Below, piece after piece: positions 29,994 through 57,782 of a stretch of 64,000 nt of DNA (positions are counted from its first letter, which is position 1; each line of letters starts with the position of its first letter). Below the pieces are notes generated by a model that searched no databases, was not told the origin of the DNA, and was given only the letters and a program-made list of their open reading frames with translations. A program made the translations under genes and the position numbers. Source of the stretch: Neobacillus ginsengisoli (GTDB taxonomy: Bacteria; Bacillota; Bacilli; Bacillales_B; DSM-18226); NCBI RefSeq assembly GCF_030813055.1, contig NZ_JAUSTW010000005.1:248001-312000 (forward strand). Direction: 5' to 3'.

Positions 29994-30015
29994 TCCTTTT
30001 CACCTTTTTCTTTTT

Positions 30016-41455: not shown

Positions 41456-42199
41456 TTATTTCTTTTCCGTATTAGCAATGAAATGTTCCATATTTTTTTT
41501 TGATTCAGGGCTTAGGTTTTGAATCTTCTCTTCCATCAGCTGCATTCCAAAATTATATAATTCAATATCTAACTTATTATTTTTCATAATGATTTCTATA
41601 ACTTCTTCAGGAAAATCTTCTCTTAAGGGGCGCTTTATTGTAACATTTCTCTTTTTGTATCGATAATTTTTCCAGCCTAATTCTTGAACAATTAAATACA
41701 ATGACTCTTCAAACATCTCTGTAATGCCTACAACCGCATAATAATTCTCTAGATTTTTTTTAGCCAGGTTTATATCATTTTGAACTCCTCCCGAGACAAA
41801 AAAAGTTTGTCTATTGGAAGTACGTCCCTTAAATTGTTCGGACGTAATGAACTCTTCAAAACTCATGTTTTTCACGATATTATGAGACAAATTATTCGGC
41901 TTGCGAAGTATAAAATAGTATTCAGATATCACATGCTCCACTGGATCACGCAGCATTGTGTAATACTCAAAAGGCCTATTGGATAAATGCTCATGAATGC
42001 CAAATAGGACATGACCATTTAGACATTTTATTTTTTCCCATTCATTTTTTGATAAATCATTTAGTTTTGATATCATCATCTCTCCTCTATTTGCAATATA
42101 TAATTCTTCTGAATCGTATTGTTTTTTCAGAATACTCTGCAAAGTAGAACCTGCCGTTTTTGGTATATGCTGAAAAATGTAAATTTTATTTTCGTTCAT
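41456..42199 (-). CDS. PAPS-dependent sulfotransferase family protein
   Basis: 247 aa. IYIFQHIPKTAGSTLQSIL is the 5'-phosphosulfate loop, and YYTMLRDPVEHVISEYYF the 3'-phosphate binding segment of the heparan-sulfate/type 2 sulfotransferase family that sulfates carbohydrates using PAPS. RBS GGAGG. It follows a glycosyltransferase fragment on the same strand by 15 bases and lies near sat and cysC, which make PAPS. Target presumably a surface or spore polysaccharide; inference from context. Confidence 0.85.
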   Translation of the reverse strand: MNENKIYIFQHIPKTAGSTLQSILKKQYDSEELYIANRGEMMISKLNDLSKNEWEKIKCLNGHVLFGIHEHLSNRPFEYYTMLRDPVEHVISEYYFILRKPNNLSHNIVKNMSFEEFITSEQFKGRTSNRQTFFVSGGVQNDINLAKKNLENYYAVVGITEMFEESLYLIVQELGWKNYRYKKRNVTIKRPLREDFPEEVIEIIMKNNKLDIELYNFGMQLMEEKIQNLSPESKKNMEHFIANTEKK

Positions 42200-42214
42200 T
42201 TATTAACCTCCAAA

Positions 42215-42460
42215 TTAACTTAGTATGGAATGATATACTTGCCTTCCCATCGTAAAAATATATGGGTGATTTACATCAAAATGCTTTTTCATGAGTTCCT
42301 TTGCTGTTTCCTTAGGTATTCTTTTAAAATGAGGATCTATCCCTTGATAAATAATAGAGATCTTTTTTTTATTGATTCCTGTCCATTCTACAAGATCTTT
42401 AGTAGTTCTTTTACTAATCGTAATGATATGCTTGGCACTTTCTAAATAAGGAGGAAAAAA
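42215..42460 (-). pseudogene. GT4 glycosyltransferase fragment
   Basis: Only the central piece is left: ESAKHIITISKRTTKDLVEW, then ISIIYQGIDPHFKR and HPYIFTMGRQVY, i.e. the linker between the two Rossmann domains of a GT4 enzyme. Both ends are deleted; the sequence after GRQV is a short unrelated tail. The open frame continuing to 42577 is antisense to another remnant. Formerly upstream of the sulfotransferase gene. Confidence 0.75.
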
Positions 42461-42687
42461 ATTATTACAAAGTTGCCCAACCGTATGAAGGAGAAGAAAG
42501 ATTAATCCATGAAATTCTTCGTTTTCCTCAGTACTTTTACGAATCGGGCTATTTTTATTTTGTTGAAAAAAGTACAAATATAGAAAGACTGGAAAGAAGG
42601 CTACTTAGTTGGGAAAAACATCAAGAGAGTCGTAAACGGTTCTTGCAACAATTTGAAAAGAGTGCTAGGCACTTATTAAAACACTAG
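42427..42687 (+). pseudogene. C-terminal remnant of an unknown protein
   Basis: An open frame without start (…YYKVAQPYEGEERLIHEILR, FPQYFYESGYFYFVEKSTN, ERLERRLLSWEKHQESRKR, ending RHLLKH) has much more protein-like composition than the overlapping minus-strand frame. It ends 39 bases before the next GT4 gene on the same strand. Probably the 3' end of a gene cut by a rearrangement near 42450. Family not recognised. Confidence 0.45.
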
Positions 42688-42726
42688 AGAAGTAAGTGTT
42701 TTACTACAGAAAAAAGGAGTGCCACT

Positions 42727-43854
42727 ATGAAAATAGGTTTGGATGCAAGAGGCGCTATTTGGTACCGAGGAACAGGCATTGGCACATATACGTACCAGCT
42801 TGTCAAAGCCCTATATTCGATTGATAAAAGAAATGAGTATCGTTTCTTTTGGCCTGGTGATGAATTTCAAAACCTTATTCCTTGTAAATATGAAGTTTTT
42901 CAAAGTATCGAATTAAACAAAGACAGATTTTGGGAAGAGGTTCGCATTCCCACACGAGTTGCACAAGAAAAAATAGATTTATATCATGTACCCCAAAATG
43001 GTATCGGACTGCCAAAAACAAAACACTGCCAGCAAGTAGCCACTGTTCATGACCTTATTCCCTTCATCTATCCTGAAACCTCCAGTTCAGAATATCTTTT
43101 AATCTTTCAAAATGAGATGCCCCGGATAATGGAACAATGCGACTTGATCATTACCGTTTCGGAGTTCTCCAAGCGTGACATTCAACGGTATTTTAACTTG
43201 CCAGACGAAAAAATTGCAATCATTTATGAAGCCGCTGAGGACATTTATCAACCGATCGAAAAAAATAAAGCGAAGAACTTTGTCAAACAATAATACGGAT
43301 TTAACTCTCGTTATATATTATATATCGGGGGTCTTTCACATCGTAAAAATGTACTTGGGCTCATTATAGCGTTTTGGAACATACGAAGAGATATCGCTGA
43401 AGATTATAAACTTGTAATTGTTGGAAAGCGGAACCGTAGCTATAAAAATTTAATAAAGCTAATAGAGACCTTAAAAATCGAGGATAGAATTATTTTTACC
43501 GATTTTGTTCCAGTGACTCACCTTCCATATTTATATAACGCAGCCGACCTATTTGTTTACCCTTCCATGTATGAAGGTTTTGGTTTACCCCCATTAGAAG
43601 CAATGGCTTGTTGGAACACCAGTTATTGCTTCTAACCTAACCTCAATCCCGGAAGTAACTAGTGACGCAGCCGTGTTAATCAACCCGCATGATAATTATG
43701 CCTTGGCCGAATCCATTGAAAAAGCCTTAAGTAAACCTGATCAATTAATCCAAATGAGTAAAGACGGCCTGGAACAAGCTAAAAAATTTTCATGGAGGAA
43801 TGCGCACAAAAAACGCTTGATGTCTATGAAAAGGTTTACAATTTAAAAGTCTAG
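42727..43854 (+). pseudogene. GT4 glycosyltransferase, nonsense and frameshift mutations
   Basis: Starts well (MKIGLDARGAIWYRGTGIGT, RBS AAGGAG) and reads as a GT4 enzyme through HDLIPFIYPE and IITVSEFSKRDI. TAA at 43291 interrupts the frame, which continues unshifted with [16 protein letters not shown] and [18 protein letters not shown]. An insertion at about 43612 shifts the GTPVIASN segment, and a further shift near 43800 affects the last 20 codons. An intact relative would be about 375 aa. Confidence 0.88.
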
Positions 43855-44213
43855 TAAAACAATCTTAATGTGTTAAGATATAATATCTTGCCAGAATAGA
43901 AGAAGGTATTTTTCTGCAGCATCTTATAAGCTATCCTCATAAAGAATAAATTTTTTGTCCTTATAAAACCATGATAAAATCCCCTCCAAGTATAGTGTAA
44001 CACCCACTTACAAGGGTTTTTGCCTAGAGGAGATACTATCATATCCGATGGACTTTTTATTGATGAAAACACTTCATGACAGATAACATCATGCTCCCAT
44101 TCATATCAAAAAAAGGAGTTGGATAACAGGGATAACTTGTCCTACTTAATCTCGGTAGAGGTTATACCCTGGAATCCCAACTTTCAGCTGAGCTAAGTGG
44201 GAATAATTCAGCC
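43855..44213. other. gene-free stretch downstream of two converging gene ends
   Basis: Contains a CCCAACTT/AAGTGGG-type imperfect hairpin at 44170-44206 that probably ends the sat transcript. I see no supported gene or other signal in the remainder. Confidence 0.4.
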
Positions 44214-45386
44214 TTATTCATTTTGTCTCATGCCTTTAATAAGCACTTCTGCCACTTCAGGGCGTGTATACTCCGGCGGCGGGGTTTTACCAGCCCGGAG
44301 GAGTTCTCTTACCTTCGTGCCGCTTAAAATTAGTCTTTCTTCATTGGAATGAGGGCATGTTTTCATAGAGGCCATATTCATACACTTTTTACAGTAAAAG
44401 CTGTGTTCAAAAAACAATGGTTTAATACCAATTGCAGTAGAATCAAATTGACGGAAAATCTTCTGTGCATCATATGATCCGTAATAATTCCCCACACCTG
44501 CATGATCACGGCCTACAATAAAATGAGTACATCCATAATTTTTCCGGACTAATGCATGAAAAACAGCTTCACGGGGACCTGCATAACGCATTGCTGCCGG
44601 ATAAATAACCAACCGGACCCGATCTAAGGGGTAATAGTTTTTTAGTAATACCTCATAGCTTCCCATCCGTACACTGGGCGGGACATCGTCCTTTTTTGTT
44701 TCTCCAACTAGAGGATTTAAGAACAGCCCATCAACCATTTCCAAAGCGGTCTTTTGCAAATATTCATGAGCGCGGTGAACTGGATTTCTCGTTTGAAATC
44801 CCACAATGGTATTCCATCCTAAGTCAGCGAACATTTTTCGTGTTTCCGTTGGCCCCATATAATATTGTTCAAATTCTGAATGTTTGGGTCTATTTAACAG
44901 AAAAATAGCCCCTGCCAGATACACATCGCCTTGGTCAAAAAGTTTTTTTACCCCGGGGTGTTTAGGATCTACTGTTTGATAAACGAGTTGGGCTTCTTCC
45001 ATTTTATCATATTCATATATTTCTTCTAACTGAATGACACCATAAAGGCTTCCATTCTCCCCATAAAGGGCAACTTGTTCTCCTATAATGAACCGATTGG
45101 CCTCTTCTTTCGTCACAGGAAGCGTAATTGGTACTGTCCAAGGTAATCCGTTTGATAAATGCATATTTTTAAGGACGGATTGGTAATCCTCTTTCCCTAA
45201 AAATCCGATAAGTGGACTATACCCTCCATTTGAAATCAATTCAATGTCAGAAATACTCCATTTTGAAATAGTAAGTGACTTAAGTGTTTTCGCCCTTTTG
45301 ATCCATAATTCACGTGCGTTTCCTGTTAGTTCACGTTGAACCAGCTTACCCCCATGTGGTTTAATAGGAGTTGTTTCCACTTTCAC
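44214..45386 (-). CDS. sat: ATP sulfurylase (sulfate adenylyltransferase)
   Basis: Makes adenosine 5'-phosphosulfate from ATP and sulfate. 390 aa with the nucleotide-binding motifs [14 protein letters not shown] and [13 protein letters not shown] and a C-terminal CxxC-x-zinc-like segment ([17 protein letters not shown]). GTG start with GGGGGA 4 bases ahead. Directly followed upstream by cysC (54-base gap), so the pair forms PAPS. Unlike Bacillus assimilatory clusters, no cysH (PAPS reductase) is adjacent; instead a sulfotransferase is, suggesting use in sulfation. Confidence 0.94.
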
Positions 45387-45440
45387 TCATCCCCCAATAA
45401 TCGATAGAATAAGATTCATGTAAATACATAAAATACAAGT

Positions 45441-46043
45441 CTAATAAGTTAAATAATCATTTATTTTCAAATAGTTGATGATTTCCTGTCCGCATTCCTC
45501 ACTTGAATATTGAGAGGTTTCAATTACGATTTCAGGTGTTTCAGGCACCTCATATGGAGCTGAAATCCCGGTCATATTAGTAAGTTCTCCTTTCCTTGCT
45601 TTTTTATATAACCCTTTTGTATCACGTTTTTCACACACTTCTAAGGGGCATTTTACATAAATCTCAATAAATTCACCCTTTGCTACCCTTTTTCGAATTT
45701 CCTTCCTATCCTCTGCATATGGAGAGATAAGTGTGGTTATTACCACAATCCCACTATCGACGAATAATTTAGCTAATTCGCCAGTTCGGCGGATGTTTTC
45801 CTTCCTATCTTCTTGACTAAATCCAAGGTTTTGATTTAACCCTTCCCTAAGATTATCGCCATCCAGAATATATGTGGATATTCCAAGTTCATGGAGTTTT
45901 CGCTCTATAATATTAGCAATTGTTGACTTTCCGGATCCTGATAAACCGGTGAACCAAAGAATATAACTTTTATGTCCATGTAAAGCCTGACGCTGTTCTT
46001 TAGTCACTTCAAAAGATTGATGAAAGATATTCTGTCTTTGCAA
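45441..46043 (-). CDS. cysC: adenylyl-sulfate (APS) kinase
   Basis: Phosphorylates APS to PAPS, the sulfate donor. 200 aa with Walker A GLSGSGKST at about residue 30, DGDNLREGLNQNLGFSQEDR and the lid segment VKCPLEVCEKRDTKGLYKKA. A TTG start with GGAAGGGG at 8 bases is preferred; a TTG six codons earlier sits on that site. First gene of the cysC-sat pair. Confidence 0.93.
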   Translation of the reverse strand: MQRQNIFHQSFEVTKEQRQALHGHKSYILWFTGLSGSGKSTIANIIERKLHELGISTYILDGDNLREGLNQNLGFSQEDRKENIRRTGELAKLFVDSGIVVITTLISPYAEDRKEIRKRVAKGEFIEIYVKCPLEVCEKRDTKGLYKKARKGELTNMTGISAPYEVPETPEIVIETSQYSSEECGQEIINYLKINDYLTY

Positions 46044-46257
46044 AAAACTATCCCCTTCCAATTATTCTATTAAAATCAGCTTTGTACAGCATCTTCCATT
46101 ATGCAGGCCAAAGCTAAAAATCACGCCTTTTGTTCTTCGATACTGCCAAGATAATTGATCCTACCCTGCCAAGTAATAAAATTACATATATAAACGGAAT
46201 CCAAATATGATTTATTGACAATACATTTATCAACGTCCATATATTGGTTATAATAAT

Positions 46258-47052
46258 TCATTTTTTTCCAATTGTTTTCTTTAGCTCTTCCCAAGAAATA
46301 AACAACCGTACAATATCTTCTTCATCAAGTTTACTTCCAAACTGAACTTCAATAATTTCAAGGTCTTTAATGGCTTTGATTCCATGCTTCCCGCCAACTG
46401 GTATGTTCAGTACATCACCTGGTTTTACATAAGACAAGACACCATCCAGAACAAATTCTCCTTCTCCCTGTACGACCACCCATACTTCATTTCTCTTATG
46501 GTGGTATTGAAAGCTAAGGTTTTTCCCCGCAAATATGCATAGCCGTTTTGTTAATACTTCCATTCCATCAGGGCTTTCTTTATATTCCAGGATACGATAC
46601 CACCCTCACCGACGTTCTTCAAACATCGGCCGTTGGTTGAAATCTGTTACCAACTCTTTGATTTGGTGACTCTTCTCTTTATCTGAAATTAGAATGCCAT
46701 CCGGACTTGTTGCTACTATAAGATTTGATGCACCCAAGACAATTACTGGAATATCTAATTCATTTATTAAATGGGTATTGATACAATCCTCACTCATAGA
46801 GCCTTTACCGATGATTTTTGTTTGCAATTGATCGGTTAATGTATTCCATGAGCCCAGGTCCTTTCAAAAATCATTGTATGGATAAACGGCAATCCGCTCA
46901 GCTTTTTCCACAATTTCATAATCAAAGCTTATTTTTGGAAGCGTTTTAAACTGTTCAATTAGCTCGTAATTTTAAAAACTGTTTTGATCTAGAATCATTG
47001 GAAAGTGGCCACAATCGTTTCCCCGAACCTCCTAATAACAATACAGCTTCAT
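46258..47052 (-). pseudogene. ManC-type mannose-1-phosphate guanylyltransferase, degenerate
   Basis: The N-terminus GGSGKRLWPLSNDSRSKQFL is the GDP-mannose pyrophosphorylase signature, but about 180 codons are then missing. After the gap it resumes at FDYEIVEKAERIAVYPYNDF, with in-frame TGA at 46864-46866, LGSWNTLTDQLQTK, in-frame TGA (for the Trp of RRWGWYR) at 46606-46608, and the cupin LTKRLCIFAGKNLSFQYHHK to the end. The 101-aa cupin part alone retains an open frame. GDP-mannose is therefore probably not made from here. Confidence 0.88.
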
Positions 47053-47208
47053 CTCATGCACCTCGATGTGATAATTAGTTGAAATTTCATTCATTTTTTC
47101 ATGGTATTATCTTATGAGTGCATAGAGTGATTGGTTTGGGACACCAAAGATATATTTTCAGTAATCATAATCTCCATATACTCATGAAGAGCAGAATTTT
47201 TTGAATAG

Positions 47209-47409
47209 CCAATTATATGGGCAGCAGTTCCTGTATTAGGTAGTAATCCATTAGTTGAGGATATTAATCGTTTTCTACATTTTTTTTTGTTTAATACTCA
47301 TGGATATGAAGGAAATGTGAGATTTTGGAATGGATTATGGAACCAGGGTTTTGTGGAAGCTGTTAATTACGAAAATCATGAAATAATGGAATTAGTGAAT
47401 GGAATATAA
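47209..47409 (+). pseudogene. 3' fragment of an unrecognised gene
   Basis: A start-less frame PIIWAAVPVLGSNPLVEDIN, FLFNTHGYEGNVRFWNGLWN, GFVEAVNYENHEIMELVNGI has good coding character and ends in TAA, but a TAG lies immediately upstream and no start or ribosome site exists. Probably a gene remnant; origin unknown. Confidence 0.35.
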
Positions 47410-47525
47410 AAAGCGCCTCTCGACGTTTGAGAAGGTCCGATCCCTTACGCATAACAGTTCAACTTATTCTTATAGAGCAAACTTCAATTATCTCTTTCGT
47501 TAATTTTTTAAAGTATTTTTTACAG

Positions 47526-48293
47526 TTAACCAATAAGTTTTATTCCACTAATAATAATGATTGCAGCCACCACTATACGGAGAAGTTTAGTAGGAACTTT
47601 TGCAGATAAAGTGCTTCCTAAAAGAACCCCTGGAATCGATCCAATTAAAAGATTTCCTACCAGGACGTAGTTTACACTTCCAGCATTTGCATGGAGCAAT
47701 CCTGCAACTGTCACTAATAAAAAGGCATGGGCAATATCAGTTCCAACTAATTCGGATGCGCTCAAACGGTATAGATATAACATAGCAAGAGCAAATAAAG
47801 AACCTGATCCAATCGAAGTGAGCCCTACAATAAAACCAAAGACAGCACCGATAAATATAGTTAATCCGCGTTTTTCTTCTACCGATTTTAATTGCCAGCG
47901 GTTCGGTCTTATTTTTTTATCAAAAAAAGTTCGAATCAAAATAGCTATAGCGACTAAAATAAGGACATAACCAAGTGATTGCTTAATAATTTGTTCTTGA
48001 TTATGATTGGAAAACTCGAAAAACTGCAGAATTATAATGGGCACAGTTGCACTTGGGACGCTTCCTATTGCAAGGTATTTTGCTAATTTGAAATTAATTG
48101 TTTTTTGTTTCCAATGTTGAAAGACCCCAAACAATTTCGTAATGGAGTTATAAACAAGATCCGTTCCTACTGCGATAGAAGGATGAATCCCTGACATTAT
48201 AAGAATAGGAGTTAAAAGTGCAGCCCCCCCTACTCCTGTTAAACCGACTAAAAACCCAATAAACAATCCCATAACCGCTATACCAATACTCAT
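47526..48293 (-). CDS. TauE/SafE (TSUP) family sulfite/sulfonate transporter
   Basis: 255 aa with about eight helices in the two-repeat TSUP pattern: GLFIGFLVGLTGVGGAALLT at the start and GAVFGFIVGLTSIGSGSLFA at the midpoint are the paired GxTGxG-like motifs. Family members move sulfite, sulfonates or related anions. Position beside sat-cysC and a sulfotransferase suggests a role in sulfur anion traffic for sulfation; inference. Its ATG overlaps the stop of the small upstream frame. Confidence 0.87.
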   Translation of the reverse strand: MSIGIAVMGLFIGFLVGLTGVGGAALLTPILIMSGIHPSIAVGTDLVYNSITKLFGVFQHWKQKTINFKLAKYLAIGSVPSATVPIIILQFFEFSNHNQEQIIKQSLGYVLILVAIAILIRTFFDKKIRPNRWQLKSVEEKRGLTIFIGAVFGFIVGLTSIGSGSLFALAMLYLYRLSASELVGTDIAHAFLLVTVAGLLHANAGSVNYVLVGNLLIGSIPGVLLGSTLSAKVPTKLLRIVVAAIIIISGIKLIG

Positions 48294-48446
48294 AGTTTAA
48301 TCCCTCTTTTTACGGCTCGAACCTTGGCTCGATAGACGTCTGGAACATTGACCACCTATTGGGTCTTGGTCAATAAAATAGCTTAAACCTAAACTTTCAG
48401 CCCCACGTACAGCTTCTTTAATCTTAGCTGGTGAATAAAAATCCAT
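48290..48446 (-). pseudogene. small protein gene upstream of TauE, frameshifted
   Basis: Good GAGG ribosome site and MDFYSPAKIKEAVRGAESLG, LSYFIDQDPI; the frame then turns into a Ser/Arg-rich tail and stops, whereas the next frame reads VVNVPDVYRAKVRAVKRGIK and ends in TGA overlapping the TauE ATG. A one-base shift near 48345 would restore a protein of about 52 aa coupled to TauE. Family not recognised. Confidence 0.5.
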
Positions 48447-48684
48447 GAAATTACCTCTTTCTGTTCTTATATTAAACCATGGAAGATCATTGAACCTTTT
48501 TATTTCTATATCGTATGAGGACGTGAAGTTTATGTATAAGACAGGCGTTTATTTTTAAAAATTTATCTAAATTTCAATCCTTACTTTCTAAATATTTTTG
48601 TTAGTAGTACATAAAACTGTACGTTGGAACACCTGCAAAGTTGGTTATATCAACCATATATTTCTTTCCGTTTTGTCCAAGCTT

Positions 48685-48719: not shown

Positions 48720-48759
48720 TCATAAAGTTACTTACCATAAATGAAAGGAGCCAATTTAT

Positions 48760-49824
48760 TTGCGTAAAGTTATCCATTTAAATTTAAGAGTTGACCCTAC
48801 CCAATATATATCACAAATTCGAGAGGTCCCCGGCTATGATTATATTCATTTGGTACGAGAACCTAAGTATATGGTAAATCTCTCCCTTTTTAATGAGAAG
48901 ATTTATTATCTTAATGAAATTTTCTCACCGAAAGAATTCGTCAAAAAAAATAAGATCTCCCTCTTACATGCTCACCACGGACAATTAGGCATATTGTTAC
49001 TCCCTTTTAAAGAAAAAACAAAACTTCCGTTAGTAACCAGTATACGAGGCAGGGATGCAACACTAGCCAATCAGCCGGTTGGCTATTTAGAGCACATGAA
49101 GATGCTTTTTGAAGAAGGCGAGTGTTTTTTCCCAGTTTGTCAATACTTAGCGGCTAGGATAAAGGATTGGGGATGCCCTTCGAAAAAGATTAGAGTATTA
49201 TATGGCGGAGTTGACCTTAACCAATTCCAATACCGGACTCCACCTAATAATGGTTCACAAAATATTTTATCTATTGGCAGATTGGTAGAGAAAAAGGGAC
49301 ACCATATCTTAATGAAAGCTTTTCAAAAAATAAAAAATAAATTCCCAAATGCCACTCTTACCATTATTGGGGGAGGGGAACTTGAAGAATATATTAAATC
49401 TTTGGCCACTCAGCTTAATCTGGGAGATTCATTTCAGCTATTAAATCATCTTCCTAAAGATAAAGTGCGAGAACAATTAGTTAAGGCCGACCTATTTTGT
49501 GCTGCCAGCTTAGAAGCTTCTAATGGAGATTTAGAAGGTATTCCAAATACATTAAAAGAAGCAATGGCGACTGGTGTACCCGTGATCTCAACCTATCATG
49601 CAGGCATTCCTGAATTGATCAAAAATAACAAAGAGGGTGTGTTAGTACAAGAGAACAACGTTGATGAACTGGCAGATGCTCTTGAATATATGTTAACCAA
49701 TAGGGCACTATGGGAAACTTATACAGCTGCAGCTCGTCAAAAAGTCGAACAAGACTTTGATCTTAATAAACAGCTTCTGCAGCAAGCTAAATATTATGAT
49801 AAACTGATAGGAGGTAAACGATGA
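48760..49824 (+). CDS. GT4 glycosyltransferase, YtcC-like
   Basis: 354 aa. The acceptor half contains SLLHAHHGQLGILLL and VTSIRGRDAT; the donor half contains ILSIGRLVEKKGHHILMKAF and LEASNGDLEGIPNTLKEAMA, GVPVISTYHAGIPELI, the GT4 nucleotide-sugar site. Start TTG with AAAGGAG at 8 bases. First gene of a tightly coupled operon with a kinase-like gene and an epimerase, parallel to B. subtilis ytcABC, whose products build the spore surface polysaccharide. Confidence 0.85.
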   Translation: MRKVIHLNLRVDPTQYISQIREVPGYDYIHLVREPKYMVNLSLFNEKIYYLNEIFSPKEFVKKNKISLLHAHHGQLGILLLPFKEKTKLPLVTSIRGRDATLANQPVGYLEHMKMLFEEGECFFPVCQYLAARIKDWGCPSKKIRVLYGGVDLNQFQYRTPPNNGSQNILSIGRLVEKKGHHILMKAFQKIKNKFPNATLTIIGGGELEEYIKSLATQLNLGDSFQLLNHLPKDKVREQLVKADLFCAASLEASNGDLEGIPNTLKEAMATGVPVISTYHAGIPELIKNNKEGVLVQENNVDELADALEYMLTNRALWETYTAAARQKVEQDFDLNKQLLQQAKYYDKLIGGKR

Positions 49825-51002
49825 AGGATTTTCAATCTATCACTGTAACCAAAGGTGAAGAATTTTTAGAGATTCATAACCCAACTAACTATTCACTAAT
49901 AGGAAATGGCGCTCAAGGTGCTGTATTTAAACTTTCAGAAAATAAATGCGTCAAAATCTATGCAGACCCGGGAAATGCCAAAAGGGAAGCAGAAGCCCTT
50001 AAAGCTGGAAGACACCTCCCCTTTATGCCTAAAGTTTTTGATTCAGGGTCAAATTATGTGGTTATGGAATATTTTAATGCTCCAACTTTAAAAGAATATT
50101 TAAGAAATTGCACGTATATCCCTGAATCCATCGTAAAAAAACTTCTCTATATATTTAAGGAAATTAGAAAGAGCACCGATCATAGTGAATTTACTCTAAG
50201 ACATATATTTGTCACTAAAAACGAAGAACTTAAAGTCATAGACCACGCCAAATCCTCCGAAAGAAATCATCCTGTTCCATTAAAACTATTAAGGGATTTA
50301 AATTTCATGCTATTAAAAGATTCATTCTTAGACCAAGTAAAAAAGTTAGAACCGAAGACCTACAAAAAATGGATGAAATTTTTTGAACAAAACAATTTAG
50401 ACTTTAGGACAATTGTGGTCACCTCTGGGAAATCAGGTAAGAGAGTAAAAATCGATTATCCGATGACACAAACGTATATCGGTTCAGAGTTTCACGGTGC
50501 TTTTTACCGCGTATCTGAAGATCAATGCGTAAAAATTTACCAGAATCCACTACATGCTAAATATGAAAAAGAGGTTCTTTTATCCAATAAAGGCTTACCT
50601 TTTATCCCGAAGGTCTTTGAAACAGGATCCAATTATATTTTAATGGAAAATCTACCAGGACCAGATTTAAATACATTTTTAAAACAACAATCGAAACTTA
50701 CAGAAGATATCACAAGGCGGCTATTATCTATTCTAACAACCATGAAAAAATCAGGTTATAAACATATTGATGCTCCGCTAAGGCATATTATTGTAACAAG
50801 CAAGGGGTTTAAATTAGTGGATCATGTGTTCCCGTTCAAACTTAAACAGAATAGACCTCTTGAGCTATTTTACAACCTTCAGGAAAGGCAATTTTTAGAT
50901 TCTTTTTTAGAACAAGTGAAGTCAATCGATCCTAAAACGTATAAAAAATGGACAAAGACACCTATTCCTCTAAATCCTGATGGGACGATAAAAATACAAT
51001 GA
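49821..51002 (+). CDS. tandem-duplicated kinase-fold protein (YrzF/PrkD-like)
   Basis: 393 aa made of two kinase-like halves. Half 1 (about 24-190): LIGNGAQGAVFKLSENKCVKIY, VMEYFNAPTLKEYL, ELKVIDHA; half 2 (about 215-385): YIGSEFHGAFYRVSEDQCVKIY, LMENLPGPDLNTFL, FKLVDHV. Each has a Gly-loop and Lys but only a reduced catalytic loop (LRHIFV/LRHIIV, no HRD). Both end with the same EQVK...PKTYKKW motif. Likely a pseudokinase or a polysaccharide/coat kinase of the CotS-CotI class. Overlaps neighbours by 4 bases on both sides. Confidence 0.75.
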   Translation: MKDFQSITVTKGEEFLEIHNPTNYSLIGNGAQGAVFKLSENKCVKIYADPGNAKREAEALKAGRHLPFMPKVFDSGSNYVVMEYFNAPTLKEYLRNCTYIPESIVKKLLYIFKEIRKSTDHSEFTLRHIFVTKNEELKVIDHAKSSERNHPVPLKLLRDLNFMLLKDSFLDQVKKLEPKTYKKWMKFFEQNNLDFRTIVVTSGKSGKRVKIDYPMTQTYIGSEFHGAFYRVSEDQCVKIYQNPLHAKYEKEVLLSNKGLPFIPKVFETGSNYILMENLPGPDLNTFLKQQSKLTEDITRRLLSILTTMKKSGYKHIDAPLRHIIVTSKGFKLVDHVFPFKLKQNRPLELFYNLQERQFLDSFLEQVKSIDPKTYKKWTKTPIPLNPDGTIKIQ

Positions 51003-52006
51003 ACATTTTAGTGACGGGTGCGGCAGGATTTATTGGTTTCCATCTATCAAAGCGTTTGTTAGATCTGAATTATCATGTAATAGGTGTCGATAATCTTAAT
51101 GACTATTACGATGTTGCTTTAAAGAAAGACCGACTAAAGATACTAGAAAATCACCCGCAATTTGAATTCCATTTAATAGATATAACTGATAGAAAAAAAT
51201 TAAATCAACTATTTGAAGAAAAAACGATCAGTATTGTTATAAACTTAGCTGCTCAAGCTGGAGTGCGTTATAGCATTGACAACCCATATGCTTATGTTCA
51301 TTCAAACCTGGTTGGGTTTATGAATATTTTAGAGTCATGCAGACAATATAAGGTCGAGCACCTGATTTATGCATCATCTAGTTCGGTTTATGGCGCAAAT
51401 GCCCACATCCCATTTTCCACCACTGACCCAGTTGATCATCCTGTAAGTATCTATGCAGCTACTAAAAAGGCAAATGAATTATTGGCCCATTCGTATAGTC
51501 ATTTATTTAATACTCCAACTACAGGTCTTCGTTTCTTTACGGTTTATGGTACTTGGGGAAGACCGGATATGGCTTATTTCTCTTTTACTAAAAACATTTT
51601 GGAAGAGAAAACCATAAAAGTGTTTAATCATGGAGACATGCAACGAGACTTTACCTATATTGATGATATTGTTGAAGCAATCATCCGATTACTCGATCAT
51701 CCACCGAAAAATAACCAAAATTGGGATAGAGAAAATCCTGATCCAAGTTCAAGCTATGCCCCATACAAAATTTATAATATTGGTAACAATCATCCTATAA
51801 AAATAATGGATTTCATTAACATTTTAGAGAAACTAATTGGAAAAAAAGCAAAAATTGAATTTTTACCAATGCAACCAGGCGACGTAAAGGAGACCTACGC
51901 AGATATTTCCGATTTGCAGGCAGATGTGGGGTTTTATCCTACAACAACCATTGAAACAGGTTTAACTCATTTTGTAGACTGGTACAAAAAATACTATAAA
52001 AAATAA
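50999..52006 (+). CDS. NAD-dependent UDP-glucuronate 4-epimerase-like protein, YtcB type
   Basis: 335 aa SDR: Rossmann VTGAAGFIGFHLSKRLL, the catalytic SSSVYG serine region and YAATK (Tyr-x3-Lys) at about 150, GLRFFTVYG in the substrate site. The DNLNDYYDVALKKDRL segment is typical of UDP-glucuronate/galacturonate epimerases. It would convert the UDP-glucuronate made by the dehydrogenase at 52394. ATGA overlap with the kinase-like gene. A MITE lies between its stop and its terminator. Confidence 0.87.
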   Translation: MNILVTGAAGFIGFHLSKRLLDLNYHVIGVDNLNDYYDVALKKDRLKILENHPQFEFHLIDITDRKKLNQLFEEKTISIVINLAAQAGVRYSIDNPYAYVHSNLVGFMNILESCRQYKVEHLIYASSSSVYGANAHIPFSTTDPVDHPVSIYAATKKANELLAHSYSHLFNTPTTGLRFFTVYGTWGRPDMAYFSFTKNILEEKTIKVFNHGDMQRDFTYIDDIVEAIIRLLDHPPKNNQNWDRENPDPSSSYAPYKIYNIGNNHPIKIMDFINILEKLIGKKAKIEFLPMQPGDVKETYADISDLQADVGFYPTTTIETGLTHFVDWYKKYYKK

Positions 52007-52022
52007 GGAGGTTTTATAAATT

Positions 52023-52206
52023 GGCTGTGTTAAAGGCGAATGTTGATTTTTTACAACTGTTGATTGGAGCGGAGGGCGCTCGACTCCTGCGGGATAGAGA
52101 GGTCACGGGAGACCCCGCTTATCTCTAAACGCCGAGGAGGCTCTCGGACCTCCCCGCGGAAAGCGAGCGCCAGGAGCGGAAATCAACAACCAAGTTTAAC
52201 AGAGCC
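52023..52206. mobile_element. 184-bp MITE-like element, copy 3
   Basis: Same ends and core (52058-52188) as copy 1, same orientation. Perfect 8-bp duplication TATAAATT at 52015-52022 and 52207-52214. It inserted between the epimerase stop codon and the operon terminator, so the element is now part of the transcript. Confidence 0.9.
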
Positions 52207-52214
52207 TATAAATT

Positions 52215-52250
52215 AAAAGGGAAATTGTCTGAAATGACAATTTCCCTTTT
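52215..52250 (+). terminator. terminator of the glycosyltransferase-epimerase operon
   Basis: A perfect 15-bp stem AAAAGGGAAATTGTC/GACAATTTCCCTTTT with a 6-base loop, directly after the right target duplication of the MITE. Confidence 0.85.
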
Positions 52251-52393
52251 AAATTTCCAACTAGGAAATGGATATTTAGCTAGAATTTATTCTCACTTTA
52301 AATTATTTGATAAAGAGCAGCCCCGTTAAGGATTATGGTGGTCCCGCAAATGTTTCATGGACAATTACCATTTGATGATTAGAATATAGTTTA

Positions 52394-53707
52394 TTAATAC
52401 TCTCCACTAAGAATAGATTGTTTACCAATTGGATAATATTCAATTTTCTCGCATTGTCTAATTCTATCTTCTTCAAGACAGTTTCTACCGTCAAAAATAA
52501 TCGGATATTTCATTTTTTTCATTAAACTGGCTAAATCCAACTGTGTAAACTCTTTCCATTCTGTCACAATAAATAATGCATCTGCACCTAAAACAGCATC
52601 AAAGACTGAGCTTACATATTGGATTGTATCACCTATAATTTTTTTGGCTTGTTCGGTTCCTACTGGATCATAGGCTACTACTTCTGCTCCTAGATTGGTT
52701 AATGATTGTGCAATATTGATGGAAGGGGCTTCTCTCATATCATCAGTTTCTGGCTTGAAAGGAAGACCAAGTATCCCAATTTTTTTTCCTTTTAATTCTC
52801 CAAATCGCTTTATCGCTTTCTTGACAAGAACCTCTTTTTGAAAATCATTAATCGAGATAGTTTCTTTTAACATAGAGAAATTTACACCATACCGTCCGGC
52901 AGTATGCAGCAATGCTTTAACATCCTTAGGAAAACAGGATCCGCCATAGCCAATTCCCGCTTGTAAAAATGCTTCTCCTATCCTTTTATCCTTCCCCATA
53001 CCTTTGGCGACATCTTCCACATCTGCTCCAACCGCTTCACATAAATTCGCAATTTCATTAATAAAACTAATTTTTGTCGCCAAAAAAGCATTGGAAGCAT
53101 ACTTAATCATTTCCGAGCTTCTAAAGCCTGTGAATATTACCGGCACCTGCAATGGACGATACATTTCTTGTACCTTTTCCGCCGCTTCTTTATTTTCAAA
53201 ACCGATAATTATTCTGTCCGCATTCATTGTATCGTGAATAGCTGAGCCTTGTCTTAGAAATTCTGGATTTGATACCATCATAACCTCTTTATTACACTTT
53301 TCTTCGATAATTTTTTTAATATATTCATTCGTTCCAACTGGTACTGTACTTTTAATCACGACAATAGTGCCTTTTTCAATATGACCAGAAATATCCTTTG
53401 CTGCTTGCTCAAGATACGATAAATCTGCTCCACCATCCGGTCTTTGTGGTGTTCCTACCGCAATGATAATGATTTCTGCACCCTCAACCCCATCTTTATG
53501 TGAAGTGGTAAATATAAGTCTACCCGCTCCTGTATTCTTAACAAGTAAAGTCTCTAGACCTGGCTCATAGATTGGAGAAATCCCCTGTTGAAGACGAGAA
53601 ATTTTCTGATCATCTATATCGATGCAAGTGACCTGATGGCCTATTTCTGACAAACAAACACCAGTAGATAGCCCGACATAGCCTGTACCTAAAACAGCTA
53701 TTTTCAT
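52394..53707 (-). CDS. UDP-glucose 6-dehydrogenase (YtcA/TuaD type)
   Basis: Oxidises UDP-glucose to UDP-glucuronate with two NAD+. 437 aa: Rossmann MKIAVLGTGYVGLSTGVCLS, the catalytic cysteine in GIGYGGSCFPKDVKAL, and KIGILGLPFKPETDDMREAP of the UDP-binding domain. The ATG of MKIAVLG is used; the gene starts 5 bases past the gtaB stop and shares the GGAG at its end. Pairs with GtaB upstream and the epimerase on the other strand. Confidence 0.93.
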   Translation of the reverse strand: MKIAVLGTGYVGLSTGVCLSEIGHQVTCIDIDDQKISRLQQGISPIYEPGLETLLVKNTGAGRLIFTTSHKDGVEGAEIIIIAVGTPQRPDGGADLSYLEQAAKDISGHIEKGTIVVIKSTVPVGTNEYIKKIIEEKCNKEVMMVSNPEFLRQGSAIHDTMNADRIIIGFENKEAAEKVQEMYRPLQVPVIFTGFRSSEMIKYASNAFLATKISFINEIANLCEAVGADVEDVAKGMGKDKRIGEAFLQAGIGYGGSCFPKDVKALLHTAGRYGVNFSMLKETISINDFQKEVLVKKAIKRFGELKGKKIGILGLPFKPETDDMREAPSINIAQSLTNLGAEVVAYDPVGTEQAKKIIGDTIQYVSSVFDAVLGADALFIVTEWKEFTQLDLASLMKKMKYPIIFDGRNCLEEDRIRQCEKIEYYPIGKQSILSGEY

Positions 53708-53712
53708 ATCAA

Positions 53713-54612
53713 TCAAACTCCTGCTTCAATATCTAAGGTATTCTTTTTTATTAAATCCCGTAAAAAGAAAAGTACCTCTTCTCGTAAATCGTCCCTATTT
53801 AAAGCAAAGTCGATCGTTGCTTTAATAAAGCCAATTTTATCTCCAATATCATACCGTCTTCCCTCAAAATTAAAGGCTAATACTGATTGCTGCTTATTTA
53901 GCTCATTAATGGCATCTGTAAGCTGTAATTCATTTCCTTGACCAACTGGAAGCCTTGCTAATATTTCGAAAATCTCTGGTTTTAAAACATAACGCCCCAT
54001 TATCGCGTATTGAGAAGGGGCTGCTTCTCTTTTTGGCTTTTCTACTAAAGATTCGATATAGGAAAGGTTTGGTTCGATATTCGTTCCTTTTGGTTTGATA
54101 ATTCCATACTTACTTACTTCATCTTCCGGCACAGTCTGAACTCCTACGATGGAGCTGTTGTAATAATCGAAAGCATTGATGATTTGCTTTAAACAAGGAG
54201 TTTCTGATATTACAAGATCATCCCCTAACAAAACAGCAAACGGCTCACTGCCGATAAGGTTTTTTGCGCAAAGAATAGCATGTCCTAGCCCCTTCGGTTC
54301 CTTTTGGCGTACATAATAGATATTTACTAAACTGGATATTTTCTGAACTTCCTCTAAAACTTCTAGCTGATTTTTTCTTAAGAGTGTATCTTCCAGCTCA
54401 TAGGATTTATCAAAGTGGTCCTCTATTGCCCTTTTTCCTCTGCCGATGATGATAATAATTTCTTCAATCCCCGAAGCAACTGCTTCCTCTACGATATATT
54501 GAATCGTTGGTTTATCAACAATCGGCAGCATTTCCTTAGGCTGAGCTTTTGTAGCTGGCAAAAAACGAGTCCCTAGACCTGCTGCTGGAATAATGGCCTT
54601 TCGAATTTTCAT
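53713..54612 (-). CDS. gtaB: UTP-glucose-1-phosphate uridylyltransferase (GtaB/YtdA)
   Basis: Makes UDP-glucose from UTP and glucose-1-phosphate. 299 aa: [20 protein letters not shown] with [19 protein letters not shown] is the nucleotide-binding N-terminus and LGDDLV holds metal-binding Asp. RBS GGGAGG. First gene of the two-gene operon with the dehydrogenase. The neighbourhood matches B. subtilis ytdA beside ytcABC rather than the housekeeping gtaB, so ytdA may be the better name. A sigma-K-like promoter precedes it. Confidence 0.92.
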
Positions 54613-54642
54613 ATGCTGCCTCCCTTCTTGAAATCCTTATTC

Positions 54643-54670
54643 TTTTATATGCAAGGATAAATCGTCCTGT
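54643..54670 (-). promoter_or_regulatory. candidate sigma-K promoter of gtaB-ugd
   Basis: On the minus strand ACA, a 16-base spacer and CATATAAAA lie 31 bases before the gtaB ATG, close to the sigma-K pattern ACA-N16-CATAnnnTA. In B. subtilis the equivalent ytdA/ytcABC genes are mother-cell expressed. Confidence 0.45.
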
Positions 54671-54793
54671 TACTGCAGATACCTAATGGTTTAGAATAAT
54701 ACTCTTAATTAAAAAGGAAGGCAGTAAATTTCTTGCTGCCAAGCCAATCAGACTTCGACCCCTTGTTACAGACCTATTGAAAGTGCAAAAAAA

Positions 54794-54823
54794 AACTCCT
54801 TTACCCGACCGGATAAGGGAGTT
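54794..54823 (-). terminator. terminator of the kinase-GT4-HipA operon
   Basis: AACTCC/GGGAGTT stem with interior CC/GG pairs, overlapping the last stop codon and followed on the minus strand by T9. Confidence 0.8.
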
Positions 54824-55598
54824 AATCATGATTATCATGTAATGGTCGATATATTTTTTTGTTGAATTTCTCTATTAGCTCTGGAAGAATTTTATCACGC
54901 CGTCTTAACAACTTTTTGACCATGACCTTCTTTTCCTCTGGAGAAACCATCCAATCGTCAGGAATTAGAGAAACAATTTCTTCAATTAATAGAGTTGGAA
55001 TGCTTTGAATGAGTTCCAACTGCTCCGTAAAATCCTTCTCGTCAGCGATACACCGTGCCATTAATTGGTGGGTTGCACTCTTCATGATATCGACTGGGAG
55101 TTTTTCTAAATCAGATTGAACCCAATTGTAAGATCCGAAAATTTCCGCATGGTCGATGATCTGCAAATGGAAGAAATTCGGCATTTTTTCTTGCAATAGA
55201 ATGTTTTTGCGGGTACGGTCTAGATTACAAAGCCAGTAATCAAATAAAATGATACCGGCTAACGATTGATGATTGATAATGTATGGGTCAGCAGAAACTT
55301 GATGGCCGTCGATACAATCGCGCACATACAACGAAGCGAATTGATTTTGAGTATAAGTTAAATGTTCTATACCAGGTACCTGTGAAGAAAATTCCCGTGG
55401 AATTTCCACTAATTGGGCAAACGGAATAGGGAGGTCAAGGTAACGGCCTAAGCAATACGAAACCCATTCATTTGCTAGGGATTTTTCAAAGCCAGGTTGT
55501 AAATATTTCACCACATAGTCTCTTCCATCATTAAAAGTTATTAGATGCGCATTCGATTTCCCTTCCATTTTTTTACGATATGCAATAGGCTCTTTCAT
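54822..55598 (-). CDS. HipA-like kinase-fold protein
   Basis: 258 aa. NDGRDYVVKYLQPGFEKSLA looks like the Lys-bearing strand, FDYWLCNLDRTRKNILLQ contains the catalytic Asp and Asn of a PI3K/HipA-type loop, and LQIIDHAEIFGS is the metal-binding segment. It lacks the N-terminal HipA toxin region and has no HipB partner, so it is not a toxin-antitoxin system. Its ATG overlaps the glycosyltransferase stop by 4 bases. A role in modifying coat or polysaccharide is inferred from context. Confidence 0.75.
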   Translation of the reverse strand: MKEPIAYRKKMEGKSNAHLITFNDGRDYVVKYLQPGFEKSLANEWVSYCLGRYLDLPIPFAQLVEIPREFSSQVPGIEHLTYTQNQFASLYVRDCIDGHQVSADPYIINHQSLAGIILFDYWLCNLDRTRKNILLQEKMPNFFHLQIIDHAEIFGSYNWVQSDLEKLPVDIMKSATHQLMARCIADEKDFTEQLELIQSIPTLLIEEIVSLIPDDWMVSPEEKKVMVKKLLRRRDKILPELIEKFNKKIYRPLHDNHD

Positions 55599-56710
55599 GG
55601 GCCAATCACCTCATCACTACTACCGTTTTCTTTCTGAATGATTTTTTCTAACAATTCGATATAACGATCTGCTACCTTTTCAATAGCGAAATTTTGGTGT
55701 ACACGTTCCATGGCTGCCTCTGACATCTGTTGATGAAGTTCTGGAAAATCTATAATACTGTATATTTGCTTGACGGCATCTTGGACATTTTCTCCATGAT
55801 AGAGTAAACCATCCTCTCCTTGAACCACCAATTCCGTGATGGGCATCATATTTGATGCAACAACCGGAACACCGCAAACCATTGATTCAATAAAGGTGTT
55901 ACCGAAGGATTCTGATTTTGTGGTTGCGAGTGTACAGCCACCTGAGTGACGAATTTTCGCATAGACATGGGGCATTTGCTGATAAGGAATAACCGGAAAC
56001 CATTTAACAATATCGGTGAGTTCCTCCTCCTGCCATTCGGCTGCAAATTCTTCCTTTTGTACACTTTGCGCCCCGCCAATCAACCATATTTCAACATCGT
56101 CTCGTTCACTTTTTATCACCTTTGCAATTTCCAGCAACATTTTCCAGTTTTTTCTTTTGTCTAATCTTCCGATCCATCCGATAATCTTTTTATCTTTAGG
56201 TATTGTGGGCGTACTGTTGAAATCAACTTCATCGGTCGCTAATGCACGGAAAAACGATGTATCTACACCATTGTATATAACATTGATGGGGATATCATCC
56301 GTCAGTATGGAAACTAATCGTTTTTGATACTGTGAAGGAACGATTATCAATTCTGGTTGTATTCCTTGGAATGATATTAAATGAGGTTTGAGCTTTATGA
56401 GCTCAGGAGTTCGAGCTTCCACAATTACAGGACCTTGATATTTTGCTTTTCGAATCCATTTGTAGGCCGCACCTGTGTCCACAACAATAATTGCATCATA
56501 AGCGTTATCCTTAATAATTTTAATAATCTCCTGTTTATCTTTAGTTAAATAAACGGGAGCAATATCCTGCATAATGTGGAGCCCTCCATGATCTGTTGTA
56601 TACAGAAATTCTGTATGAATACCATGTTGTTTAAAATAAATCGAGCGATTACGCCAACCGGCATTTACTCCCCCAACCGTAAGCAGTCGCCAGATTACAA
56701 GTACTTTCAT
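55595..56710 (-). CDS. GT4 glycosyltransferase, CotSA-like context
   Basis: 371 aa: KVLVIWRLLTVGGVNAGWRN start, PVIVEARTPEL and IPINVIYNGVDTSFFRAL in the linker, IIGWIGRLDKRKNWKMLLEI and TKSESFGNTFIESMVCGVPV in the donor-binding half. RBS GAGGAG before the ATG of MKVLVI. Middle gene of an operon with two kinase-fold proteins, resembling the pairing of CotSA with CotS-type kinases in Bacillus coat loci. Confidence 0.85.
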   Translation of the reverse strand: MKVLVIWRLLTVGGVNAGWRNRSIYFKQHGIHTEFLYTTDHGGLHIMQDIAPVYLTKDKQEIIKIIKDNAYDAIIVVDTGAAYKWIRKAKYQGPVIVEARTPELIKLKPHLISFQGIQPELIIVPSQYQKRLVSILTDDIPINVIYNGVDTSFFRALATDEVDFNSTPTIPKDKKIIGWIGRLDKRKNWKMLLEIAKVIKSERDDVEIWLIGGAQSVQKEEFAAEWQEEELTDIVKWFPVIPYQQMPHVYAKIRHSGGCTLATTKSESFGNTFIESMVCGVPVVASNMMPITELVVQGEDGLLYHGENVQDAVKQIYSIIDFPELHQQMSEAAMERVHQNFAIEKVADRYIELLEKIIQKENGSSDEVIGP

Positions 56711-56801
56711 ATTGGTTCTCCTCGCTATTTTTGGGCACCTCCTCATAAATTCAAACCTTATTTTGTAGGTCAGAATTTAGAGGGTATAACCGTTATTTAC
56801 C

Positions 56802-57782
56802 TTAACGATGTTTTCCAGTTTCACGATATTTTACACTTTCAAATGGTTTTTCCTCTCCATTATATTTTCTATGACGTTGCTGTTTTTCTTTTTCTCCACG
56901 GGAATCCTTTCCCTTTTTGCTTCGTCCATCTCGAGTATAGGGTCCATCCTGTTCGTGTTCATCCCAATACTTATCAATTTTTTCCATTACTTTATTGATA
57001 TCATATCCGCGTGCTATCATTGTTTTTACCCATTCTTCTTTGAAAACTTTGTGTGCTAAGCCTTCTAGCATTACAACATAGTTTTCCTCATCCTTTGTTG
57101 TTAACAGCTTTTGACTTAGTTTTTTCAAAGTTTTTTTATCACTTTTTTGTGGGAGTAGTATTTGGTAAATTTGATGGGATATTTCTTCCATGCGGATATA
57201 ATGCAGCCATTCATTATATAATTCGGGTTCTAGTGTTTGAACATGTGATAAAAACAATGCCTTATTTTCTTCTCCTAATGAAGTTAGCAACTTTCTCGGA
57301 TAGGGATATACCCGATCACGCCAAACAGTCCTCGCCACGTCAATTACTTTCAAATTACCATCTGGTTGTAAGAAAATTTGCCGTTTATGATGATCAATCC
57401 GTTCGAAACCGATTTCTTTAAACATAACTAACATTTGGATCAATTTATAAGAAAGTTCTTCTGTCAATGGCTGTGATTGCAAGTATTCACGTAGGTCCAC
57501 TCCTCTTACAATTTCCATTGCAATATAGAGTGACCCTTTTGCATATACCTGTGGCAGTAAATTCGTGTTTTGTCCTAGGGATAGGGCATAATATTCCCGA
57601 TCACAATCCTCGACATTTCCAAATACTTTCACACAAATATCGTCCGAAAACTGAAAAACAGCTCCTTGACGCCCTTTACCTATCATCAGCATTGGTGATT
57701 TATTAACAACTTCCACGTCTGCATTGATCATATTCTGAACTTTTATGTCTTTTATCCATTTTTCCAATTGTTTCTTATCCAT
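56802..57782 (-). CDS. protein-kinase-like protein, YrzF/PrkD family
   Basis: 326 aa: MIGKGRQGAVFQFSDDICVK (Gly loop and Lys), AMEIVRGVDLREYL (hinge), RIDHHKRQIFLQPDGNLKVI with VIDVAR (reduced catalytic and metal segments), then a C-terminal tail that ends in a low-complexity basic/acidic run (GRSKKGKDSRGEKEKQQRHR). AAAGGAAG precedes the chosen ATG. First gene of the operon. The charged tail resembles coat-protein tails. Confidence 0.78.
   Translation of the reverse strand: MDKKQLEKWIKDIKVQNMINADVEVVNKSPMLMIGKGRQGAVFQFSDDICVKVFGNVEDCDREYYALSLGQNTNLLPQVYAKGSLYIAMEIVRGVDLREYLQSQPLTEELSYKLIQMLVMFKEIGFERIDHHKRQIFLQPDGNLKVIDVARTVWRDRVYPYPRKLLTSLGEENKALFLSHVQTLEPELYNEWLHYIRMEEISHQIYQILLPQKSDKKTLKKLSQKLLTTKDEENYVVMLEGLAHKVFKEEWVKTMIARGYDINKVMEKIDKYWDEHEQDGPYTRDGRSKKGKDSRGEKEKQQRHRKYNGEEKPFESVKYRETGKHR

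Follow-up and report, generated by a model that had tools for sequence, protein, structure and literature searches.

What would a spore-forming bacterium do with a private supply of activated sulfate beside genes for surface polysaccharides? This question is raised by a stretch of 64,000 nucleotides from Neobacillus ginsengisoli (contig NZ_JAUSTW010000005.1, positions 248,001 to 312,000; the whole stretch is called the window here), in which genes for a sulfotransferase, the sulfate-activating enzymes Sat and CysC, and a TauE/SafE-family transporter lie together with genes for family 4 glycosyltransferases (GT4s), UDP-sugar enzymes and kinase-like proteins. The organism forms spores, as follows from a GerA-type germination operon at 3963-7891 (GerA, spore permease, GerAC). 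An original prediction, made from the sequence alone, had proposed a sulfated uronic-acid polysaccharide, probably on the spore; open reading frame (ORF) and family searches confirmed its placement of the sulfotransferase, Sat, CysC, TauE, two GT4s, UTP-glucose-1-phosphate uridylyltransferase (UGPase), UDP-glucose dehydrogenase (UGD) and an epimerase. We consider it probable that these genes belong to an island that sulfates a glycan of the spore surface late in sporulation, by means of a dedicated supply of 3′-phosphoadenosine 5′-phosphosulfate (PAPS).

A heparan-type sulfotransferase

The sulfotransferase gene (41456..42199, minus strand) matches PF03567 (Sulfotransfer_2; Pfam E 2.3e-9), has an intact frame and is preceded by GGAGG before the start. 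Its product contains the motifs PKTAGST (residue 13), GHVLFG and RDPVEHVISEYY; we take PKTxxT to be the 5′ PAPS loop, the histidine of the GH motif to be catalytic and RDP..S to be the 3′ phosphate motif. K14 and T19 are invariant in 35 aligned rows, and so are H63, R84 and S92, which align with the GH and RDP..S stretches of the 2-O-sulfotransferase. The protein matches all 23 columns invariant among 34 relatives and departs at no column with at least 90% conservation. An AlphaFold (AF2) model with a mean pLDDT of 93.5 found heparan sulfate 2-O-sulfotransferase as its best PDB match (4ndz; E 4.3e-9, TMq 0.65) and reached a TMq of 0.67 against 5t03. The predicted activity is PAPS-dependent transfer of a sulfuryl group to a sugar. 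Full-length identity reaches 83-85% with three proteins from jgi and lgn sources. Among the best 80 of 371 relatives, the closest-matching locus was that of Bacillus sp. V5-8f (L002; 67%), and the PF03567 relatives included records from outside the spore formers (cyanobacteria, Chloroflexi, Planctomycetota).

The gene order in V5-8f is GT4, CotS-type kinase, CotS-type kinase, ManC, GT4, sulfotransferase, and for both kinases the solved B. subtilis YtaA (2q83) was a hit, at 2e-41 and 8e-20. The corresponding stretch of the window, 42215-43819, is debris: a GT4 fragment (42242..42463, minus strand; covering residues 160-233 of the 401 in the V5-8f relative, 62% in tblastn), the C-terminal end of a CotS/YtaA-type spore kinase (42457..42681, plus strand; residues 268-342 of 344, 60% in tblastn from the V5-8f kinase), and a frameshifted second GT4 (42727..43819, plus strand; 70% in tblastn over residues 1-295, with residues 264-364 at 43490-43819 in another frame and an ORF that stops at 43293). 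ManC (mannose-1-phosphate guanylyltransferase/isomerase; 46282..47044, minus strand) has an internal deletion, with tblastn recovering residues 69-94 and 285-512 of the V5-8f protein. An apparent 'cupin' ORF at 46258-46563 is not a gene of its own; tblastn identified it as the C-terminal end of the deleted ManC. The presence of cotSA/cotS-type genes among the intact genes is not supported, the sole CotS-type kinase found being the 75-residue fragment. Because of the V5-8f gene order and the YtaA matches of its kinases, the most likely origin of the sulfotransferase is a cluster of spore kinase and glycosyltransferase genes that included a GDP-mannose gene and has decayed in the window; a cluster of that spore kinase/glycosyltransferase type was described by Scheeff et al. 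(PMC2860764).

This decay allows a different explanation, which we regard as unlikely though deserving of weight: that the sulfotransferase is an inactive left-over of the lost CotS/ManC glycan cluster, and that Sat-CysC and the uronate module have other roles. None of the GT4, CotS-type kinase, second GT4 and ManC genes in that stretch is intact, and since the second GT4 has kept 70% identity to its relative, the decay is recent and the intact sulfotransferase frame proves little. Against this explanation stand the agreement with 34 relatives at every conserved column, the ribosome site, the full-length jgi and lgn relatives, and the fact that Sat, CysC and TauE are intact.

Sat and CysC from a non-assimilatory lineage

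Sat (sulfate adenylyltransferase; 44214..45386, minus strand; PF01747 1.1e-97, NF003166 over cut-off) and CysC (adenosine 5′-phosphosulfate kinase; 45441..46061, minus strand; PF01583 1.6e-68, TIGR00455 over cut-off; start codon uncertain) both contain what we take to be the motifs of these enzymes. TauE (47526..48293, minus strand; PF01925 5.7e-48) is 64% identical to copies beside sat-cysC-sulfotransferase in two other loci (L003, L004). The order tauE-cysC-sat recurs in three Peribacillus-type loci (L011, L013, L018) and in three others (L216, L217, L219); window TauE has no match at 1e-10 to the TauE of these six, which belongs to another branch.

For comparison, 25 genomes were picked as Bacillaceae-type records from 76 loci (best 80 of 371 relatives), after a first listing had already shown sat/cysC in some loci; sat or cysC was present in the stored flanks of 13 of the 25 chosen vs 11 of the 51 other loci. 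The 25 genomes hold 51 sat copies, from which 23 lie within 5 kb of cysH and 22 within 35 kb of a sulfotransferase gene, none being linked to both and six to neither. Both a cysH-linked and a sulfotransferase-linked sat are present in 19 genomes. Within 10, 20 and 35 kb of the sulfotransferase we counted 15, 19 and 22 copies, against 0.26, 0.47 and 0.75 expected if genes were placed at random (the 35-kb limit was chosen after seeing the data), so that linkage of sat to this sulfotransferase family recurs above expectation in other Bacillaceae-type genomes. Three genomes, G003 and G021 with no PF01507 match and G020 with one under cut-off, all keep a sulfotransferase-linked sat and cysC, with the reservation that the drafts may be incomplete. 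A second sat type in G003, G020 and G024, with frames of 582-596 amino acids and a lower score, belongs with neither the cysH-linked nor the sulfotransferase-linked copies.

Trees were built from 48 Sat proteins (the window and those 47 of the 51 copies whose length was 340-450 residues) and 44 CysC proteins (43 plus the window). In both, the window protein falls into a clade of five with L088, L096, L097 and L105 (support 100/99 in each tree), apart from the 23 cysH-linked copies. In all four of these loci a PF03567 gene lies 4.3-5.3 kb off; L088 is tagged 'other' in the tree, as BLAST missed its sulfotransferase, which the PF03567 search places 4.3 kb away. Window Sat and CysC thus belong to a non-assimilatory lineage.

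A plain assimilatory pair, feeding a CysH elsewhere in the genome and the CysJI at 11220-14792, is consequently rejected by trees and copy pairing, and we consider it highly improbable. In its favour, cysJI-type sulfite reductase genes do occur in the same window (named from sequence without a family search; no cysH was seen adjoining), and the sole sat copy of V5-8f is cysH-linked. However, the relatives have 24 strong CysH-type matches, all with an E of 4.3e-54 or lower, and 23 of these adjoin their own sat, and no cysH-like ORF was found among the ORFs within 5 kb of the window pair. Tree and copy pairing support a use of PAPS other than by CysH, for which a glycan is the simplest candidate.

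A probable association with the spore surface

Gene families in the 25 sulfotransferase loci were compared with those in 23 cysH-sat loci and 40 random control loci (fetched from 48 regions drawn; G005 and G022-G025 are not represented). A family that has no Pfam match was conspicuous, occurring in 7, 0 and 0 of these loci, respectively; under an NCBI model it is the BMQ_0737 family of morphogenetic spore coat proteins, and the outermost spore proteins of Priestia megaterium are reported to include BMQ_0737 (PMC4656864). Genome-wide, a sulfotransferase gene lies no more than 20 kb from 16 of its 24 copies, compared with 0.23 expected, in 11 of 12 genomes; two of the 24 are under cut-off, and one genome accounts for five as tandem copies. 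CotZ genes were that close in 5 of 21 cases (0.19 expected), spread over 5 of 13 genomes; one sulfotransferase locus with a CotZ gene, at ~8.5 kb, is that of Metabacillus arenae. Both families were first noticed in these loci and then tested genome-wide, which somewhat flatters the effect, and the expected counts presume random placing and ignore other causes of clustering between spore and sugar genes. In two loci there are members of a cluster for which the one protein tested is of the CsxC family. Altogether, a spore-shell gene (CotZ, BMQ_0737, CsxC-type or CotS-type) is present in 11 of the 25 flanks; the sulfotransferase family clusters with spore-shell genes in relatives. Another marker, the YheC/D ATP-grasp family (PF14398), was discarded as multi-copy (124 places in 21 of the 25 genomes); only 50 of the 124 places were used, nine of them within 20 kb of the sulfotransferase, and nothing was drawn from this count. 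Collagen-like repeats as glycan acceptor were sought as well, and no run of at least eight G-x-y units was present in the 1565 ORFs scanned.

Independently of these families, a tblastn search of plasmids gave 28 records with the sulfotransferase, each of them from Priestia; six were examined. Coat_X proteins are encoded 7-22 kb from the sulfotransferase on four of the six: pBM600, where the two Coat_X genes are 22 kb from the sulfotransferase and the same element also encodes GT4s and a kinase of the window family, and pBMG2, KF18 unnamed6 and 2020WEIHUA p3, with distances of ~7-13 kb. On a fifth, pBM-Cp-1-3, the sulfotransferase is accompanied by DUF4183 proteins, which presumably have a link to the exosporium. 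Near TauE and the sulfotransferase, pBMG2 also bears a cysC fragment (L222 25886-26071; 49% over 59 residues). P. megaterium strains without pBM600 have no exosporium, and the role of pBM500 is left open by the authors; QM B1551 carries the sulfotransferase gene (BMQ_RS26695) on pBM600, and PV361, which is free of all seven plasmids, is exosporium-less (PMC4674009).

The window contains five strict sigma-K matches on both strands, two of which lie upstream of genes in question: AC-N17-CATAAGATA (47108..47135, minus strand) precedes manC fragment-cysC-sat, and AC-N16-CATACGATA (48509..48535, minus strand) is located 0.2 kb upstream of the tauE start. The predicted ytdA promoter (54644..54688, minus strand) consists of a GerE-like box followed by AC-N17-CATATAAA, which is found before ytdA in 8 of 8 aligned sequences (the window and seven relatives). 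In these eight sequences the box, 25 bases upstream of the -10, resembles what we take to be the GerE consensus. In B. subtilis, ytdA is sigma-K dependent and YtdA fused to green fluorescent protein localizes to the coat (PMC4670728).

The predicted location at the spore surface is hence supported by the BMQ_0737 and CotZ linkage, the CotS/YtaA kinases in the V5-8f locus, the Priestia plasmids and the ytdA promoter. Sulfation of a vegetative capsule, exopolysaccharide or lipid instead of the spore seems quite unlikely to us. It would fit the many relatives in which the sulfotransferase lies amid sugar-nucleotide and glycosyltransferase genes, with CotZ, BMQ_0737, CsxC-type and CotS-type genes absent from 14 of the 25 flanks, and also the PF03567 relatives in non-spore-formers; yet the two linkages far above chance, pBM600 and the Coat_X plasmids, the CotS-type kinases and the ytdA promoter weigh against a vegetative target.

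Several observations besides those 14 flanks nevertheless speak against sulfation of the spore surface by this island. Within the island no spore morphogenetic protein was found, small ORFs having been only partly searched, and the sulfotransferase may be orphaned since part of its presumed old cluster is broken. V5-8f, the best-matching sulfotransferase locus, has only the cysH-linked sat, and on the Priestia plasmid Y11 unnamed2 nothing spore-like was seen within 15 kb of the sulfotransferase. The strict sigma-K pattern ends in TA, which is missing from the ytdA site, and the promoter statistics are weak: strict sites precede 3 of 25 sulfotransferase operons vs 14 of 459 random ORFs (p 0.051), relaxed sites 7 of 25 vs 74 of 459 (p 0.105), and sulfotransferase-linked sat operons differ from cysH-linked ones by 3 of 22 vs 0 of 23 (strict) and 8 of 22 vs 3 of 23 (relaxed). 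Finally, exosporium-bearing wild-type spores of P. megaterium are more hydrophobic than exosporium-less ones (PMC4674009), which a heavily sulfated surface would not predict.

The UDP-uronate module and the nature of the acceptor

The right part of the island encodes the enzymes for UDP-uronates, two GT4s and three kinase-like proteins. On the plus strand, a GT4 (48760..49824; PF00534 4.5e-39) starts with a TTG that is aligned with L206, L207, L208, L209 and L211, while its relatives in L202 and L218 begin further upstream. Some of its relatives (L202 10444, L218 8391, L206 9173 etc.) have K/H-rich N-terminal or K/Q-rich C-terminal tails, which in our view resemble some spore coat proteins. 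The GT4 is followed by a double kinase-like protein (49821..51002; Pkinase 5.5e-4, under cut-off) and a YtcB-like sugar-nucleotide epimerase (50999..52006; Pfam Epimerase 8.9e-61; PDB 5u4q 1.8e-137, 6zl6 1.2e-55). We take both PDB entries, which the search output lists under other or generic names, to be UDP-uronate 4-epimerases, and the window protein accordingly to be of the UDP-glucuronate 4-epimerase type. On the minus strand lie a YtcA-like UGD (52394..53716; TIGR03026 over cut-off, TuaD model under; PF03721/00984/03720), a YtdA-like, GalU-type UGPase (53713..54612; TIGR01099 over cut-off), a HipA_2 kinase-fold protein (54822..55598; PF20613 2.5e-23) that overlaps the next gene, a second intact GT4 (55595..56746; PF00534 2.4e-27; 76-78% in G027 and G028), and a kinase-like protein without Pfam match (56802..57833; StkP 1.1e-4 over 69 residues; 69-71% in G027 and G028).

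The three kinase folds of the original prediction were thus only partly borne out: HipA_2 scores above cut-off, and the other two have a sub-cut-off Pkinase match (49821-51002) and no Pfam match (56802-57833). Both halves of the 396-398-amino-acid relatives of the 49821 protein match the 56802 protein; PDB sequence searches with two of the kinase-like proteins gave nothing useful. Pfam family searches rejected a CotS-type assignment for all three, with no PF01636/CotS-type match at E 0.001. The overlapping HipA_2-GT4 pair (54822-56746) is kept in G027 and G028 and parallels the kinase-glycosyltransferase pairing of CotS-CotSA; other groupings of kinase, GT4 and HipA_2 genes occur in G032, G036, G046 and G058.

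Is the sulfate carried by the uronate, as had been predicted? The unit of GT4 and double kinase is present in 13 relatives (G027, G028, G032, G036, G037, G043, G046, G047, G049, G050, G051, G055, G058) and accompanied in 11 of them by the epimerase at 75-80% identity, and 12 of the 13 have no PF03567 match, PF03567 being the sulfotransferase family covered by that search. The exception, G049, has one broken PF03567 match ~0.2 Mb away and another some 2 Mb away. Conversely, among the 25 relatives just two (L004, and G013 via L102) had a UGD-like gene in the stored stretches near the sulfotransferase or near its sat copy. The grouping of the GT4 pair with ytdA/ytcA/ytcB-like genes is conserved in G027 (L202), partly in G028 (L203) and rearranged in G032, G036, G043, G046 and G058. 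The sulfotransferase of M. arenae does have a close UGPase relative nearby (66%, beside cysC), as has that of Sporosarcina globispora (57%). In Peribacillus cavernae and in V59.32b, relatives of the window-family kinases sit between sulfotransferases, a stop interrupting each match. Uronate module and sulfotransferase are two modules, and the former can stand without a PF03567 sulfotransferase. With PF03567 absent from 12 of the 13 relatives that have the GT4-kinase unit, an acceptor other than a uronate is conceivable; as a general acceptor, uronate is not supported, nor is sulfate on a uronate polymer in the form first stated. The co-occurrence of both modules in one island is suggestive of a sulfated uronate, not proof.

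Boundaries of the island and other features of the window

Direct repeats of ~0.8 kb, 95.8% identical in blastn over 809 columns, flank 19,143 bases of the window. Both copies (40605..41412 and 60556..61362, plus strand) contain the mocR/lysE junction; the left keeps mocR and has a broken lysE, the right has a truncated mocR and an intact lysE. Since each copy keeps a different intact gene, the 19-kb segment is most simply explained as an insertion between mocR and lysE with a duplicated end. The two genes stand side by side in 9 of 19 lysE loci fetched from relatives; in the other 10, mocR was not seen within ~1.5 kb of lysE. A single crossover with a circular element would yield such a duplicated end, and a circular origin is plausible because Priestia carries such genes on plasmids. 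Near the right end lies a DUF2642-like protein (59592..60272, plus strand; under cut-off), and DUF2642 proteins are also encoded on two sulfotransferase-carrying Priestia plasmids.

Additionally, we identified a repeat of ~200 bp resembling miniature inverted-repeat transposable elements, with three full copies, 96% alike, on both strands (18761-18967, 29998-30208, 52023-52224) and partial copies at 10257-10414 and 10964-11095. A 139-amino-acid protein at 31312-31731 has a weak match to the MM0924 family, under cut-off; its RGGP motif is reminiscent of spore coat CotB.

Proposed function and comparison with known systems

We propose that the inserted island serves the spore surface. The dedicated Sat-CysC pair would activate sulfate to PAPS, with the TauE/SafE protein possibly handling sulfate or sulfite for this pathway, and the PF03567 enzyme would transfer the sulfuryl group to a sugar hydroxyl in a coat or exosporium glycan, presumably in the mother cell, late in sporulation. 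In parallel, the YtdA-YtcA-YtcB-like set would make UDP-glucose, UDP-glucuronate and probably UDP-galacturonate, which the two GT4s, each with kinase-like proteins, may use for an acidic spore polysaccharide. Judging by gene content, the pattern of a PAPS supply and a heparan-type sulfotransferase beside spore-surface genes is recurrent across Bacillaceae. Much more tentatively, it is conceivable that many Bacillaceae possess a sulfated, acidic, glycosaminoglycan-like spore-surface polymer, made by heparan-type sulfotransferases with their own PAPS supply on islands or plasmids swapped between strains, and that the acceptor in N. ginsengisoli contains uronic acid. Spore surface polysaccharides affect adhesion and hydrophobicity and their chemistry is largely open; sulfation, if true, would add a strong, permanent negative charge. 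Among the full-text matches listed, no paper assigned either a sulfotransferase or a sulfated glycan to Bacillus spores, which is weak evidence of novelty as most subscription journals were outside the scope of the search.

With the assimilatory cysH-sat-cysC operon, the window pair has the chemistry of Sat and CysC in common, and it differs in having no cysH seen alongside and in its separate lineage. The animal heparan sulfate 2-O- and 6-O-sulfotransferases (PDB 4ndz, 5t03) share profile match, fold and PAPS motifs with the window enzyme, at only 17-19% identity. Plasmid pBM600 resembles the island in bringing together a sulfotransferase homologue (42% identity across 217 residues), GT4s, kinases of the 49821/56802 family and of the APH/EcKL type, DUF2642 and its two Coat_X proteins; unlike the window it is a plasmid and has no sat or cysC match in the 40-kb stretch searched. 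The main text of the study on its exosporium contains no word beginning with 'sulf' or 'glycos' (PMC4674009). Compared with the ytdA-ytcABC/cotS-ytaA cluster of B. subtilis, the window adds Sat, CysC, TauE and a sulfotransferase, which the portions of the reports consulted do not mention for that cluster, and its intact kinase-like proteins belong to HipA_2 and another family in place of CotS/YtaA. Both, however, combine UGPase, UGD, epimerase and GT4s with kinase-fold proteins (PMC2860764; PMC4670728), and the sigma-K-dependent ytdA of B. subtilis (PMC4670728) may have its counterpart in the window ytdA, which a sigma-K-like site precedes.

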